A DNA stretch of 64,000 nt from Halorientalis litorea (lineage in GTDB: Archaea > Halobacteriota > Halobacteria > Halobacteriales > Haloarculaceae): contig NZ_CP095482.1 of the NCBI RefSeq assembly GCF_023028225.1, forward strand, positions 1,488,001-1,552,000. Reading direction: 5' to 3'. The position numbers were made by a program, and so were the translations under genes. Of this stretch, positions 53,463 through 56,818 are shown piece by piece. Each line of letters begins with the position of its first letter. Position 1 is the stretch's first letter. The notes under the pieces were generated by a model, which saw only the letters and a list, made by a program, of their open reading frames with translations, was not told the DNA's origin and made no database searches.

Positions 53463-53891
53463 ATGGGTATCGGTGGCTCGGACATGTACCGACAGCAGAT
53501 TCTCGACCACTACAAGAACCCGCGTAACTACGGGGAAGTCGAGGACCCCACGTACACCCACGTCGGCGAGAACCCGATGTGCGGTGACACCATCGAGATG
53601 CAGGTCAAACTCGACGACGACGAGGAGACCATCGAGTACGTCGCCTTCCAAGGTGACGGCTGTGCTATCAGTCAAGCCTCGGCCTCGATGCTCTCGGAGA
53701 AGCTACAGGGGATGGCTGTCGAGGAGTTACGCGAGATGGACCGCGACGACATCGTCGACATGCTCGGCGTCGACATCTCCCCGATGCGGGTCAAGTGCGC
53801 GGTGCTGGCCGAGAAGGTGGCACAGGACGGGGCCGACATCTACTTCGGCGAGTTGGACGTCGAGAAGACGACCACCGAAGACGACGACTGA
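53463..53891 (+). CDS. sufU: SufU/NifU-like Fe-S cluster scaffold
   Basis: 142 residues. Conserved ligands C40 (NPMCGD), C67 (DGCAIS) and C112 (MRVKCAVL) with Asp42, the SufU/IscU arrangement. Begins MGIGGSDMYRQQILDHYKNP. Assembles Fe-S clusters or, in SufU-type proteins, relays sulfur from SufS. Convergent with radA; the 260-base gap holds hairpins described separately. Confidence 0.93.
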   Translation: MGIGGSDMYRQQILDHYKNPRNYGEVEDPTYTHVGENPMCGDTIEMQVKLDDDEETIEYVAFQGDGCAISQASASMLSEKLQGMAVEELREMDRDDIVDMLGVDISPMRVKCAVLAEKVAQDGADIYFGELDVEKTTTEDDD

Positions 53892-53974
53892 CCGTCCGTT
53901 TGGGATTTCTGTCGACGAGGCCGTCGCAGTCGTGCGGTCAGCGGTAGAAAGCACCAGCATCCGCGCGAGCGGAG

Positions 53975-54079
53975 CGAGACGCGACCGGAGGGAGCGTCTC
54001 GGGAGTGCGAGCAGCGACGCCGCGAGCAAGCGAGCGCGGTTCACTGCGACCGAGCGAAGCGAGGTCGCAGGTCGTTTTT
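53975..54079 (+). repeat. Two tandem 8-base stem-loops plus oligo-T downstream of sufU
   Basis: Stem 1: CGAGACGC (53975-53982) and GCGTCTCG (53994-54001), 11-base loop. Stem 2: CTGCGACC (54044-54051) and GGTCGCAG (54063-54070), also an 11-base loop. A five-T run follows at 54075-54079. The interval is filled with GCGAGC/GGAGCGAG-type repeats, known to recur between haloarchaeal genes. Probably an RNA-level terminator or stability element. Confidence 0.6.
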
Positions 54080-54081
54080 CC

Positions 54082-54148
54082 CCACGTTTTTACAAGGAGG
54101 GGTACCCCAGCGCGCAGCGCGAGGATACCCCTCCTTGTAAAAACGTGG
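54082..54148. terminator. Perfect 23-base inverted repeat between sufU and radA
   Basis: Left arm 54082-54104 starts CCACGTTTTTAC and ends GGGGTA; right arm 54126-54148 is its exact reverse complement. The 21-base spacer (54105-54125) is G+C-rich with a repeated AGCGCG unit. Each strand shows an oligo-T run (five T) at the start of its arm, near the end of each convergent gene, so it is probably a shared bidirectional terminator. The radA stop is three bases away. Confidence 0.65.
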
Positions 54149-54151
54149 TCG

Positions 54152-55189
54152 TTATTCGTCCATCAGGCCGCCTTCCTCGACGCGCATGACGCCCTCGCCG
54201 TCGGGGAGGTTCGGCGCGTCGACGAGTTTGACGATGCGCTTGTTCCCCTTGGACTTGCGGAGGTACATGCGGAACGTGGAGGTGTGTCCGAGGATGTTGC
54301 CGCCGATGGGTTGGGTCGGGTCGCCGAAGAAGGAGTCGGGGTTGGCCGCCACCTGATTGGTGACGACGACGGCGGTGTTGTTCAGGTCGCCGACGCGCAT
54401 CAGGTCGTGGAGGTGCTTGTTGAGCTTCTGCTGGCGTTCGGCGAGTTCGCCACGGCCGACGTACTCGGCGCGGAAGTGGGCGGTCAGTGAGTCGACACAG
54501 AGGAGACGGACGGGGAACTCGTCGTCTTGGCTCTCGCTGGCGAGTTCCTTCGCCTTCTCGGCGAGCAGAATCTGGTGGTTGGAGTTGAAGGCCTTGGCGA
54601 CGTGGATGTTGTCGAGTACCGCCTCGACCAGTGCCTCGACGTCTTCTTCGTTGTCGACGCTTGCCTCCTCCATCCCGAACAACTCCATCGTGTCCTGGAG
54701 TACCTCGTCGTCGTGTCCGCGGACCATCTGGTCGATACGCTCGGGACGGAAGGTGTCCTCGGAGTCGACGAAGATGGCACTGCCCTCCAGCCCCCCGTGT
54801 TCACTCGGGAGCTGGACGTTCACCGCGAGCTGGTGGGTGACCTGTGACTTCCCGGCACCGAACTCGCCGTACACTTCGGTGATGGACTGGGTTTCGACGC
54901 CGCCGCCGAGCAAGTCGTCGACTTCTTCGACGCCCCACGTGAGTTTGCCGATTTGCTCGCGGCGTTCGAGGACCTGCGCGCCAGACTCGAAGCCGCCGAT
55001 GTCGGCGGCCTCGCGGGCGGCCTGAATGATGTCGGCGGCACTGGACTCGCCGATGTCGGCCGTGTTCGAGAGTTCCCCCGGACTCGCCACCGCGATGCCC
55101 TGATACGAGTCGAACCCGTTGTCCTGTAGCTTCTCCGCTGTCGCCGGACCCACGCCCGGCAGTTCTTCGAGGTCTTCGGTTGCTGCCAT
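54152..55189 (-). CDS. radA: RadA recombinase
   Basis: 345-residue archaeal RecA/Rad51 homologue, strand exchange in homologous recombination. The N-terminal HhH is [20 protein letters not shown]. Walker A is GEFGAGKS (residues 108-115), Walker B in [20 protein letters not shown], and loop 2 region [20 protein letters not shown]. No intein is visible. TATA TTTATG at 55214-55219 gives a start at 55189 with leaderless spacing. Convergent with sufU. Confidence 0.97.
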
Positions 55190-55350: not shown

Positions 55351-55376
55351 GATGATATGCATGTTTGTCAACACAT

Positions 55377-56039
55377 ATGGTGGAGCTGACAACGCTCACA
55401 ATTCCGCTGTGGGTTGTCGTTGTACTGGGGACGGGGCTGTTCGCACTGACCGCGCTCAACCGAGAACAGAAGGGAGCGTACTCGCTGATGGGTATCTTCG
55501 GCGGGGCCGTTCTCTGGGCTGGCGGTTACGCCGTCGAGTTGACGAACCAGATGTTCCTCGCACACGCCATCAGATTCGCCGGTGCCGGTATCGTTCCGGT
55601 CGCGATTTTCGTCATCGCGCTCCAGCTCACCGGCCGTGAGGAACTGGTGACCGCTCGGAACGTCGGCGGCATCTTCGCCGTCTTGTTCGGGTTGTTCGCA
55701 CTCATCCTCACGAACTCGATGCACGAACTCTGGGCGGTCCAGAGTACGATAACGAACGCGGCCGTCGACGGCGCGAGCATCCAGTGGGGGCCGCTGTTCT
55801 ACGTCGCCTCCACTGCCCTGATGTTGCTTGCTGTGGCCGCGTTGGGGCTGTTCGGCCAACGTGCACTCCAACAGGACACCGACTCGTTCATCACGACGCC
55901 GTCGGTGTTCGTCCTCGTCACGGCGATTCCAGTCGTCACCTATACCGTCTACCTCGTCGGGATGACCACGATCGACGCGACGCCGTTCACGTTCCTCGTC
56001 TCCGGCCTGCTGATGATATTCGCGATGTTCTACCTCTGA
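55377..56039 (+). CDS. Stand-alone 7TM sensor domain (no kinase), 220 aa
   Basis: Seven predicted helices, beginning MVELTTLTIPLWVVVVLGTG. Contains QKGAYSLMGIFGGAVLWAGG and IVPVAIFVIALQLTGREEL, like the N-terminal HisKA_7TM domain of histidine kinases such as the 48294-50012 gene. Ends at VSGLLMIFAMFYL, exactly where the 7TM domain stops in kinases; PAS, H-box and ATPase regions are absent and the following 100 bases have no kinase frame. It may pair with a separate kinase or signal by itself. Paralogue immediately downstream. Confidence 0.82.
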   Translation: MVELTTLTIPLWVVVVLGTGLFALTALNREQKGAYSLMGIFGGAVLWAGGYAVELTNQMFLAHAIRFAGAGIVPVAIFVIALQLTGREELVTARNVGGIFAVLFGLFALILTNSMHELWAVQSTITNAAVDGASIQWGPLFYVASTALMLLAVAALGLFGQRALQQDTDSFITTPSVFVLVTAIPVVTYTVYLVGMTTIDATPFTFLVSGLLMIFAMFYL

Positions 56040-56149: not shown

Positions 56150-56818
56150 ATGGTGGTGGAAGTCACGCCGCTTACAGTCCCGTTGCTCGTCGTCGCCGTC
56201 GTGGGGGCCGGGTTGGCGGTACTGTCGTTGAACTACCGCGGACAGAAGGGGGCGTATCCGCTCGCCGGTGTGTTCAGCGGGGCGGCACTCTGGGCGGGTG
56301 CGTACGCGCTCGAACTGTCGAGTACGGCCGTCGACCCAGCACTCTTGTGGCTCAGACTCCGATTCGTCGGCAGTACGGTCGTCCCCGTGGCGATTTTCGT
56401 CCTCGCGCTGGAACTGACCGACCGCGACGACCTGACGCTCCAGTACGTCCTCGCGCTGTTCGCGCTCCCGTCGTTCACCGCCGTCGCCGTCTGGCGGAAC
56501 CCCGCCGGTATCTGGGCGGCGCGGTACGTCTTCGACCCCGGAGCCGTCCCGTCGGTGACCGCCGACTGGGGGCCGTGGTTCGTCGTCTACGTCAGTTACC
56601 AGTTCACGCTCGCCGTCGGGGCCATCTTCCTGTTCGCGCGGCGGGCCGTCGACCGCGAGGGGGCACGGAGCAACACCGCGTCGCTCCTCCTCGTGGCGAC
56701 GGTGCTTCCCGCCGTCGGCACCGGCCTGTACGTCGCCGGCGTCTCGGGCATCGACTACGGGGCGTTCGCCTTCCTCCCCGCGGGCCTGTTGATGTTGGTC
56801 GCGATGTTCTACCTCTGA
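56150..56818 (+). CDS. Stand-alone 7TM sensor domain paralogue, 222 aa
   Basis: Paralogue of the preceding gene: QKGAYPLAGVFSGAALWAGA and VVPVAIFVLALELTDRDDL align with it, and the ending PAGLLMLVAMFYL is nearly the same. Starts MVVEVTPLTVPLLVVAVVGA. Divergence is high in helices 4-7 (for example WGPWFVVYVSYQFTLAVGAI), so the duplication is old. No kinase domain follows; the next gene is on the other strand. Ligand or partner unknown. Confidence 0.82.
   Translation: MVVEVTPLTVPLLVVAVVGAGLAVLSLNYRGQKGAYPLAGVFSGAALWAGAYALELSSTAVDPALLWLRLRFVGSTVVPVAIFVLALELTDRDDLTLQYVLALFALPSFTAVAVWRNPAGIWAARYVFDPGAVPSVTADWGPWFVVYVSYQFTLAVGAIFLFARRAVDREGARSNTASLLLVATVLPAVGTGLYVAGVSGIDYGAFAFLPAGLLMLVAMFYL

Follow-up and report, generated by a model that had tools for sequence, protein, structure and literature searches.

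SMR-A of Haloquadratum walsbyi is non-coding, about 110 bp long, multi-copy, and nested in other elements; the portion of its description cited here gives the mobilizing enzyme as unknown (PMC3119063). The repeat family described below, one copy of which separates sufU and radA in Halorientalis litorea, is likewise short, non-coding, haloarchaeal, multi-copy, and found nested in other elements. According to the same portion of that source, SMR-A is bounded by terminal inverted repeats and leaves its target unduplicated, its targets being the near-terminal palindromes of PATEs/IS605. The present element, in contrast, lies behind genes, and is flanked at 17 of 183 copies by repeats of 21–89 nt. 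Its inverted repeat, the hairpin termed hp3, is internal and placed at one end; nothing at the GTGG end corresponds to the AGCATCC end; and the flanks of the copies we read are the 3' ends of genes and tRNAs. PATEs and other IS605-derived Haloquadratum elements share with it palindromes near the ends, a lack of coding capacity, and haloarchaeal hosts, but are related to IS605 ends and, as far as the cited text goes, make no target duplications (PMC3119063); three of the genomes with near-identical copies of our element have no Y1 gene.

Bacterial REP/BIME and REPIN–RAYT sequences are also small extragenic palindromes in many copies, paired or mosaic in arrangement (excerpts of PMC3116915 and PMC2817692). 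The usual description of a REP—a short extragenic palindrome, in many copies, often paired—applies to the present element too, head-to-head pairs of which were seen. It differs in having no link to RAYT, in combining conserved linkers with hypervariable stems, and in abutting stop codons precisely. With the terminators of Haloferax volcanii it has the motif T5C in common; those are single T stretches or hairpins in the cited part of that study (PMC7237163), whereas this repeat is modular, is dispersed, and carries T tracts on either strand. RepRanger, in the part of its account cited here, has no haloarchaeon among its named archaea (PMC12306157). Our literature search found no account of the present family and, since subscription papers lie mostly outside its coverage, one may be in print; a text match of the signature strings returned six papers, none of them archaeal by title.

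The copy between sufU and radA

The window, a 64,000-nucleotide stretch of H. litorea contig NZ_CP095482.1, contains sufU (53463–53891, + strand; NCBIfam TIGR01994 SufU, above cut-off) and radA (54152–55189, − strand; NCBIfam TIGR02236 RadA, 516.6 bits), which converge on a gap of 260 nt (53892–54151). The original prediction placed in this gap two 8-base stems with 11-base loops, a T5 run, and an exact 23-base inverted repeat with a 21-base spacer, and all of these figures hold. The stems are at 53975–53982/53994–54001 and 54044–54051/54063–54070, with apices GACCGGAGGGA and GAGCGAAGCGA; T5 runs occupy 54075–54079 and 54087–54091 of the + strand; and the inverted repeat, 54082–54104/54126–54148, can be extended to 32-nt arms at 91% identity. 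The predicted start, 53975, lies too far in. The whole element begins at 53956, with AGCATCC, and runs on the + strand to 54148, a length of 193 nt, in a scaffold common to copies of the genus. It starts 64 nt after the end of the sufU stop codon, and its GTGG end is 3 nt from the stop codon of radA.

From its start the element reads as follows. Linker AGCATCC (53956–53962, + strand), near-invariant in alignments A1 and A2, overlaps an enlarged hairpin, hp1 (53961–54039, +), in which CCGCGC-GA-GC (53961–53970) pairs with GC-GA-GCGCGG (54030–54039). The arms enclose a 59-nt insert; other copies have a short hp1. The first of the two small hairpins (53975–54001, +) is nested inside hp1, and is itself of hp2 type, matching positions 33–59 of the covariance model R1 (20.1 bits, E 0.0035, searched in the window). 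Next come the linker GGTTCAC (54038–54044, +), invariant in all 12 copies of A2, and hp2 proper (54044–54070, +), with an 8-bp stem that covaries in the family alignments and the apex GA-GC-GAA-GC-GA. TTTTTC (54075–54080, +) is the predicted terminator tract for transcripts in the sufU direction, on the evidence of its sequence and of a T5C reporter precedent in the cited part of PMC7237163. The last hairpin, hp3 (54082–54148), recognized by inverted-repeat analysis and by the model R2, has a near-symmetric stem, CCACGTTTTTAC...GTAAAAACGTGG, and is assigned to neither strand. It contains the second T5 tract of the + strand (54087–54091) and, on the − strand, a further T5 (54139–54143), 9–13 nt past the radA stop codon and the predicted terminator tract of that gene. 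R1 matches the copy at 54013–54098 (72.3 bits) and R2 at 54082–54147 (49.9 bits).

That the equal geometry of the small stems and the length of the repeat are unlikely by chance was also rightly judged. Dinucleotide shuffling of the gap, done 100 times, gave no exact inverted repeat longer than 11 nt, against the 23 observed, and a fold of the gap with a few flanking bases gave z = −8.15, none of 200 shuffles being as good; chance hairpins are ruled out by these two comparisons. Both apices in the window conform to GA-NN-GNA-NN-GA, a pattern common to 52 of the 95 distinct hp2 hairpins of the family, located without the model. Loops of the d(GCGAAGC) type and tandem G-A pairs have unusual stability in DNA. 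The radA loci of the closest named species are those of Halorientalis, at 90–95% identity. Farther along the window, at 55365–56039 and 56150–56818, are two adjacent and similar open frames of membrane type, 222–224 aa, a likely tandem duplication.

A modular family with putatively exchangeable stems

The window feature is not a singleton but a copy of a dispersed, modular family in the Halobacteriales, whose scaffold is AGCATCC-[hp1]-GGTTCAC-[hp2]-GG..T5C..CCACGT5GC-[hp3]-AAAAA(G)GTGG, the hp3 end also taking the form A5(C)GTGG, with an overall size of about 120–250 nt. The original prediction raised two questions, whether the sequence occurs elsewhere and whether it is kept beside radA in relatives, and both are answered in the affirmative: copies are found genome-wide, and each of the six named Halorientalis congeners has an element behind radA (L095–L100). 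So do two Halobellus (L147, L158), and at the radA loci read the gene beyond the element is not always sufU. The suggestion that the long repeat might be the remains of a small mobile element gains support as to an element family, but not as to the long repeat alone; the unit is hp1-hp2-T5C-hp3.

DNA searches found 10 places in the H. litorea genome with 301 nt of sequence and, with 501 nt, 5–21 places in each of seven congeners. The covariance models reach further. R1, built from 12 copies and covering the first 86 positions, has 38 matches at E≤0.1 in the H. litorea genome. It also matches, at least once at E≤0.001, 55 of the 57 genomes searched from the host's taxonomic family, which include all 22 genera sampled. 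In the phylum sample it matches 22 of 196 genomes at E≤1e-5, all from the same order; 11 of the 33 order-mates are negative at this threshold, as are all 163 genomes from outside the order. R2, which covers hp3, has 47 matches in the H. litorea genome, some of them the two strands of a single site, and the union of both models, made by eye, comes to about 48 sites. All 48 are on contig C1, which accounts for 2.80 of the 3.21 Mb; the remaining 0.42 Mb has none. Two relatives behave in the same way, with 53 of 53 matches on C1 in G006 and 49 of 49 in G001. In G006 the two ends of this 3.38-Mb contig (C1:8150-14235 and 3369880-3375965; L191, L192) share at least 6 kb at 99.9% identity, and are probably an unclosed circle in the assembly. 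Copies from several genera, in G020, G038, G061, and G132 (e.g. L068, L250, L251, L253, L176), carry a further conserved block, GCGCGCCACCGCAAT..GTTCACTC..CTGTACTG, 5' of AGCATCC.

The linkers are constant, and the stems are anything but. Eleven base pairs are changed on both sides in the alignment of 12 copies, and 21 of 22 in an alignment of 112 matches (111 distinct), a result equaled in none of 500 shuffles. Double-changed cells in the latter number 494, against 118 ± 14 in shuffles and at most 66 in versions slid out of register; the covariation score is 0.519, against 0.111 shuffled and at most 0.049 slid. Because the 112 matches were fitted to the model, this alignment favors the structure, a bias that the slid controls leave in place. 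The outer stem of hp3 also changes in step, appearing as CCAC/GTGG, CCAT/ATGG, ACTAAA/TTTAGT, and CGCACA/TGTGC. G-U pairs (G-T in DNA) are rare: 7 of 622 interior pairs of hp2 stems, against 39 of 622 in the stems of 28 tRNAs from the same loci.

Orthologous sites show how the stems change. We compared 30 copies each from H. litorea, G006, and G001, genomes with 38–53 matches. Twelve of the 30 H. litorea copies stand at a gene end that carries a copy in a congener too. At such sites the flanks are 72–93% identical and the linkers are kept, while the stems differ wholesale yet stay paired. The 32 alignable pairs of orthologous copies have 337 base pairs the same, five changed on one side, and 151 changed on both; the nine pairs whose flanks are at least 85% identical have 101, 0, and 41, respectively. 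Stem identity averages 0.668 at orthologous sites (26 pairs) and 0.611 elsewhere. L070 and L323 illustrate the extreme, all three hairpins differing beside a flank that is 93% identical over 1453 nt. Some stems turn up again at other sites: L340 and L376, which were not paired as orthologous, have a 72-nt composite hp2 in common.

Point-by-point evolution of the stems as RNA is disfavored by the few G-U pairs and by the ratio of 151 to 5; constraint at the level of DNA, or replacement of whole stems, fits both observations better than slow RNA evolution. From the sequences we infer exchange between copies, with each stem replaced as a unit. Resident copies do not suffice, through gene conversion, as the only source of new stems, for there is no excess of shared hp2 within genomes: three of 583 pairs, two of them trivial duplicates, against five of 1187 between genomes, among the 60 of 90 hp2 that could be extracted. 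In the hp3 loops of L021, L026, L075, L210, L330, L331, L346, and others are nested two-hairpin modules, such as GTTCACGAG..CTCGTGAGCAAACCAG..CTGGTGTGAG and ATGCGAACGGG..CCCGTGAGCAGA; L075 and L189 differ by about 58 nt, cleanly inserted. The modules possibly make up a second class of very small hairpin inserts.

Gene ends and apparent movement

Gene context was examined for 147 unique copies (152 minus five duplicates), mostly the best-scoring ones, using a codon-score gene caller of our own and locating the hp3 end by regular expression. A gene points into the hp3 side of 99 of them, and in 65 of these 99 its stop codon or tRNA end falls between −5 and +6 nt of the GTGG end. No distance between 6 and 22 nt occurs, and a broad tail follows. 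In H. litorea the facing gene abuts the hp3 end in 16 of 22 cases. The hp1 side has no comparable peak, with 11 of 90 in the same interval. The facing gene is a tRNA gene at 20 copies, and at ten of these it lies 3 nt away or less. Abutment within a few nucleotides, together with residence at orthologous gene ends, suggests that the host makes use of the element. Insertion does not always take place behind a gene, since in 41 of the 147 copies the downstream gene points away, and none of 17 near-identical, recent copies abuts a stop codon.

Such recent copies occur in G020, G021, G031, and G132, as units of about 150–190 nt that are mostly 95–100% identical (some pairs 87–94%) at unrelated sites with unrelated flanks. 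The direct repeats of 21–89 nt mentioned at the outset lie no more than 15 nt from the element on both sides. The 183 copies are those left after removal of doubly identified loci that we had tracked, and the 17 with repeats represent 16 loci, because a single sequence, found near each end of a contig, appears as both L325 and L326. Controls gave three of 994 for mismatched pairs of flanks and none of 490 for pseudo-sites. In each case the repeat is the 3' end of the neighboring gene: the tail of nuoI in G001 (74 of 74 nt identical), the tail of ileS at L057 in H. litorea (38 of 39), the end of tRNA-Arg at L049 and L236.

Two genes were followed across genomes. NuoI had a match in 52 of 54 genomes of the family; 30 loci were taken and one, L422, was left out. 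Tail repeats follow nuoI at eight of the remaining 29 (74, 76, 26, 25, 26, 77, 81, and 76 nt), each ending 0–2 nt before the end of the stop codon. Several other loci have the element in the opposite orientation and no repeat (orientation in G048 and G051 was judged by eye), and some, including those in G031, G045, G057, and G046, have no element. Among eight Halorientalis genomes, ileS is followed by long repeats in two (39 and 37 nt), by a 13-nt remnant in one, by the element without a repeat in two, and by no element in three. Filled and empty sites thus coexist at both genes. The check for a target duplication that the original prediction proposed came out negative around the window copy, direct-repeat tests of whose ends found none; flanking repeats are a feature of other copies.

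From these patterns we infer that the flanking repeats are target duplications made on insertion, and that the element spread by inserting at gene ends. Tail repeats of protein genes were seen only where element and gene share a direction; in the commonest arrangement, with the facing gene abutting hp3 as at radA, repeats occur only beside tRNA genes. The nuoI repeats of different genera begin at nearly identical codons. Instead of repeated insertion, this could reflect a single ancient event whose copies recombination has kept alike, or a cassette that carries its own tail along. A general cause in tandem duplication of gene tail plus element is rejected, most cases being one element between two tails. 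Tandem arrays do exist: at L044/L045 (G000:C1:2268559-2268839), L093, L096, L100, and L412 the last 24–70 nt of the gene and the whole element are repeated two to four times, with the junction, in the arrays read, at the GTGG end. An origin in viruses or plasmids was considered and set aside; an exact pattern occurs in 17 IMG/VR contigs, and two plasmid records matched over 33 nt only.

Some copies lie within a MITE. The best-preserved copy in G031 (L088, within L279) lies between the termini GGTGTCATAGAAC of an insertion sequence that, at L267 of the same genome, encodes a 330-aa DDE transposase (Pfam DDE_Tnp_1). Other copies in G031, and those in G021, have the same or decayed termini nearby. 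Since copies lie inside a pair of these termini, at least some have been carried by a MITE, and the G021 and G031 copies can be explained, on this sequence evidence, as cargo of an IS-derived MITE. The likeness to haloarchaeal IS MITEs extends to these copies; most others, in the flanks read by eye, have no such termini, and in G021 and G031 the element is cargo. H. litorea has GGTGTCATAGAAC-terminated derivatives of 0.55–0.7 kb at L264 (G000:C1:803122-803792) and L272 (G000:C2:37796-38358), and their cargo is unrelated.

Predicted termination, competing explanations, and what follows

Reporter assays in Haloferax volcanii put the share of transcripts ended by T5C at 95%, and by a hairpin tested there at 59%, according to the cited part of the study (PMC7237163). 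The original prediction assigned to each arm of the long repeat an oligo-T that would terminate one gene. As far as sequence can tell, this finds support in the T tracts that lie past the gene ends on the two strands, at 54075–54079 (+) and 54139–54143 (−). Transcripts from the sufU side would meet hp1 and hp2, then T5C and the second T5; those from the radA side would meet CCAC-(G)-T5 a few nucleotides past the stop codon. The hp3 stem, exact over 23 bp in the window copy, would supply oligo-T to both strands, and termination could be strengthened, or 3' ends protected, by the hairpins. The element is a likely bidirectional terminator for sufU and radA, judging from sequence, position, and the published T5C assay (PMC7237163, in part). 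A scan for intrinsic terminators did not list the window element, probably owing to the scan's rules on loop and tail.

The interpretation in the original prediction is partly supported; its two suggestions, terminator and mobile element, each gain support, as two sides of one element family. What the sequences establish directly—the family, its covariation, its position behind stop codons, its dispersed near-identical copies, and the gene-tail repeats at some sites—is best read as the work of a non-autonomous repeat that lodges at the 3' ends of genes and would act there as a bidirectional terminator. For small, non-coding Halobacteriales repeats of conserved linkers and exchangeable hairpins, right behind genes and terminating in both directions, we put the probability at roughly 0.64. 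More tentatively, and at somewhat less than even odds, they form a class of mobile gene-end terminators that insert at the 3' ends of genes and tRNAs, copy the last 21–89 nt, keep the gene whole, sometimes supply the stop codon (TAG in TAGCATCC), terminate both ways, and exchange stems as cassettes on fixed linkers; the window copy would be an old, settled member, and the shared terminator of sufU and radA.

The element might instead be purely selfish, a non-autonomous MITE- or SMR-like repeat with no role in the host, found at gene 3' ends because insertion does least harm there. Dispersed near-identical units, carriage by a DDE-transposase MITE in G021 and G031, nested hairpin modules, and gene-tail repeats would all suit such a parasite. 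Confinement of all 48 H. litorea sites, and of the 53 and 49 matches in G006 and G001, to C1 would not, nor would abutment within a few nucleotides and the presence of 12 of 30 H. litorea copies at orthologous gene ends, and we consider this explanation unlikely. A REP/BIME-like family mobilized on single-strand hairpins by a Y1 (RAYT/TnpA) transposase could account for strand-specific GA-NN-GNA-NN-GA apices, head-to-head pairs (e.g. L204, L210, L235, L247), and few G-U pairs. PF01797, however, present in four of the eight genomes searched, is missing from G021, G031, and G132, three of the four with near-identical copies, and from G001, genomes with many or near-identical copies, so that Y1/RAYT mobilization is unsupported. 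Y1 transposition, moreover, is not known to leave long flanking repeats, and those here are 21–89 nt. The chance that such an enzyme moved the family seems very slim.

Nor do we give much more credence to a small structured RNA gene, or a regulatory RNA derived from 3' UTRs, its structure kept for the binding of a partner. Very strong covariation and two conserved single-stranded linkers are what such an RNA would display, but the scarcity of G-U in hp2 relative to tRNA stems and the excess of double over single changes at orthologous sites speak against it, as does the lack of any Rfam family at threshold; the Rfam 15 search returned two sub-threshold snoRNA matches only, both inside radA. 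Least probable, to the point of being scarcely credible, is a local origin, at this convergent gene pair, of two ordinary terminator hairpins. T tracts, GC-rich stems, and convergent genes are just what a plain bidirectional terminator would offer, but the AGCATCC and GGTTCAC linkers, like the order of the modules, are found again at dozens of unrelated loci, and in 22 of 22 genera sampled. For the linkers a local origin is refuted; it stands only for the function in termination.

If the reading as a settling, two-way terminator is right, an entire archaeal order owes some of its transcription termination to a spreading repeat, for which the 3' ends of genes such as nuoI, ileS, tRNA-Arg, and radA are landing sites. 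Compensatory change as fast as that seen here, 151 double to 5 single, is hard to obtain from slow RNA evolution, a warning that covariation alone need not imply a functional RNA. The long repeats of gene tails suggest a mechanism of insertion that no family compared here by description accounts for. Haloarchaeal terminators and 3' UTRs would, if all this is true, acquire a concrete and testable origin.
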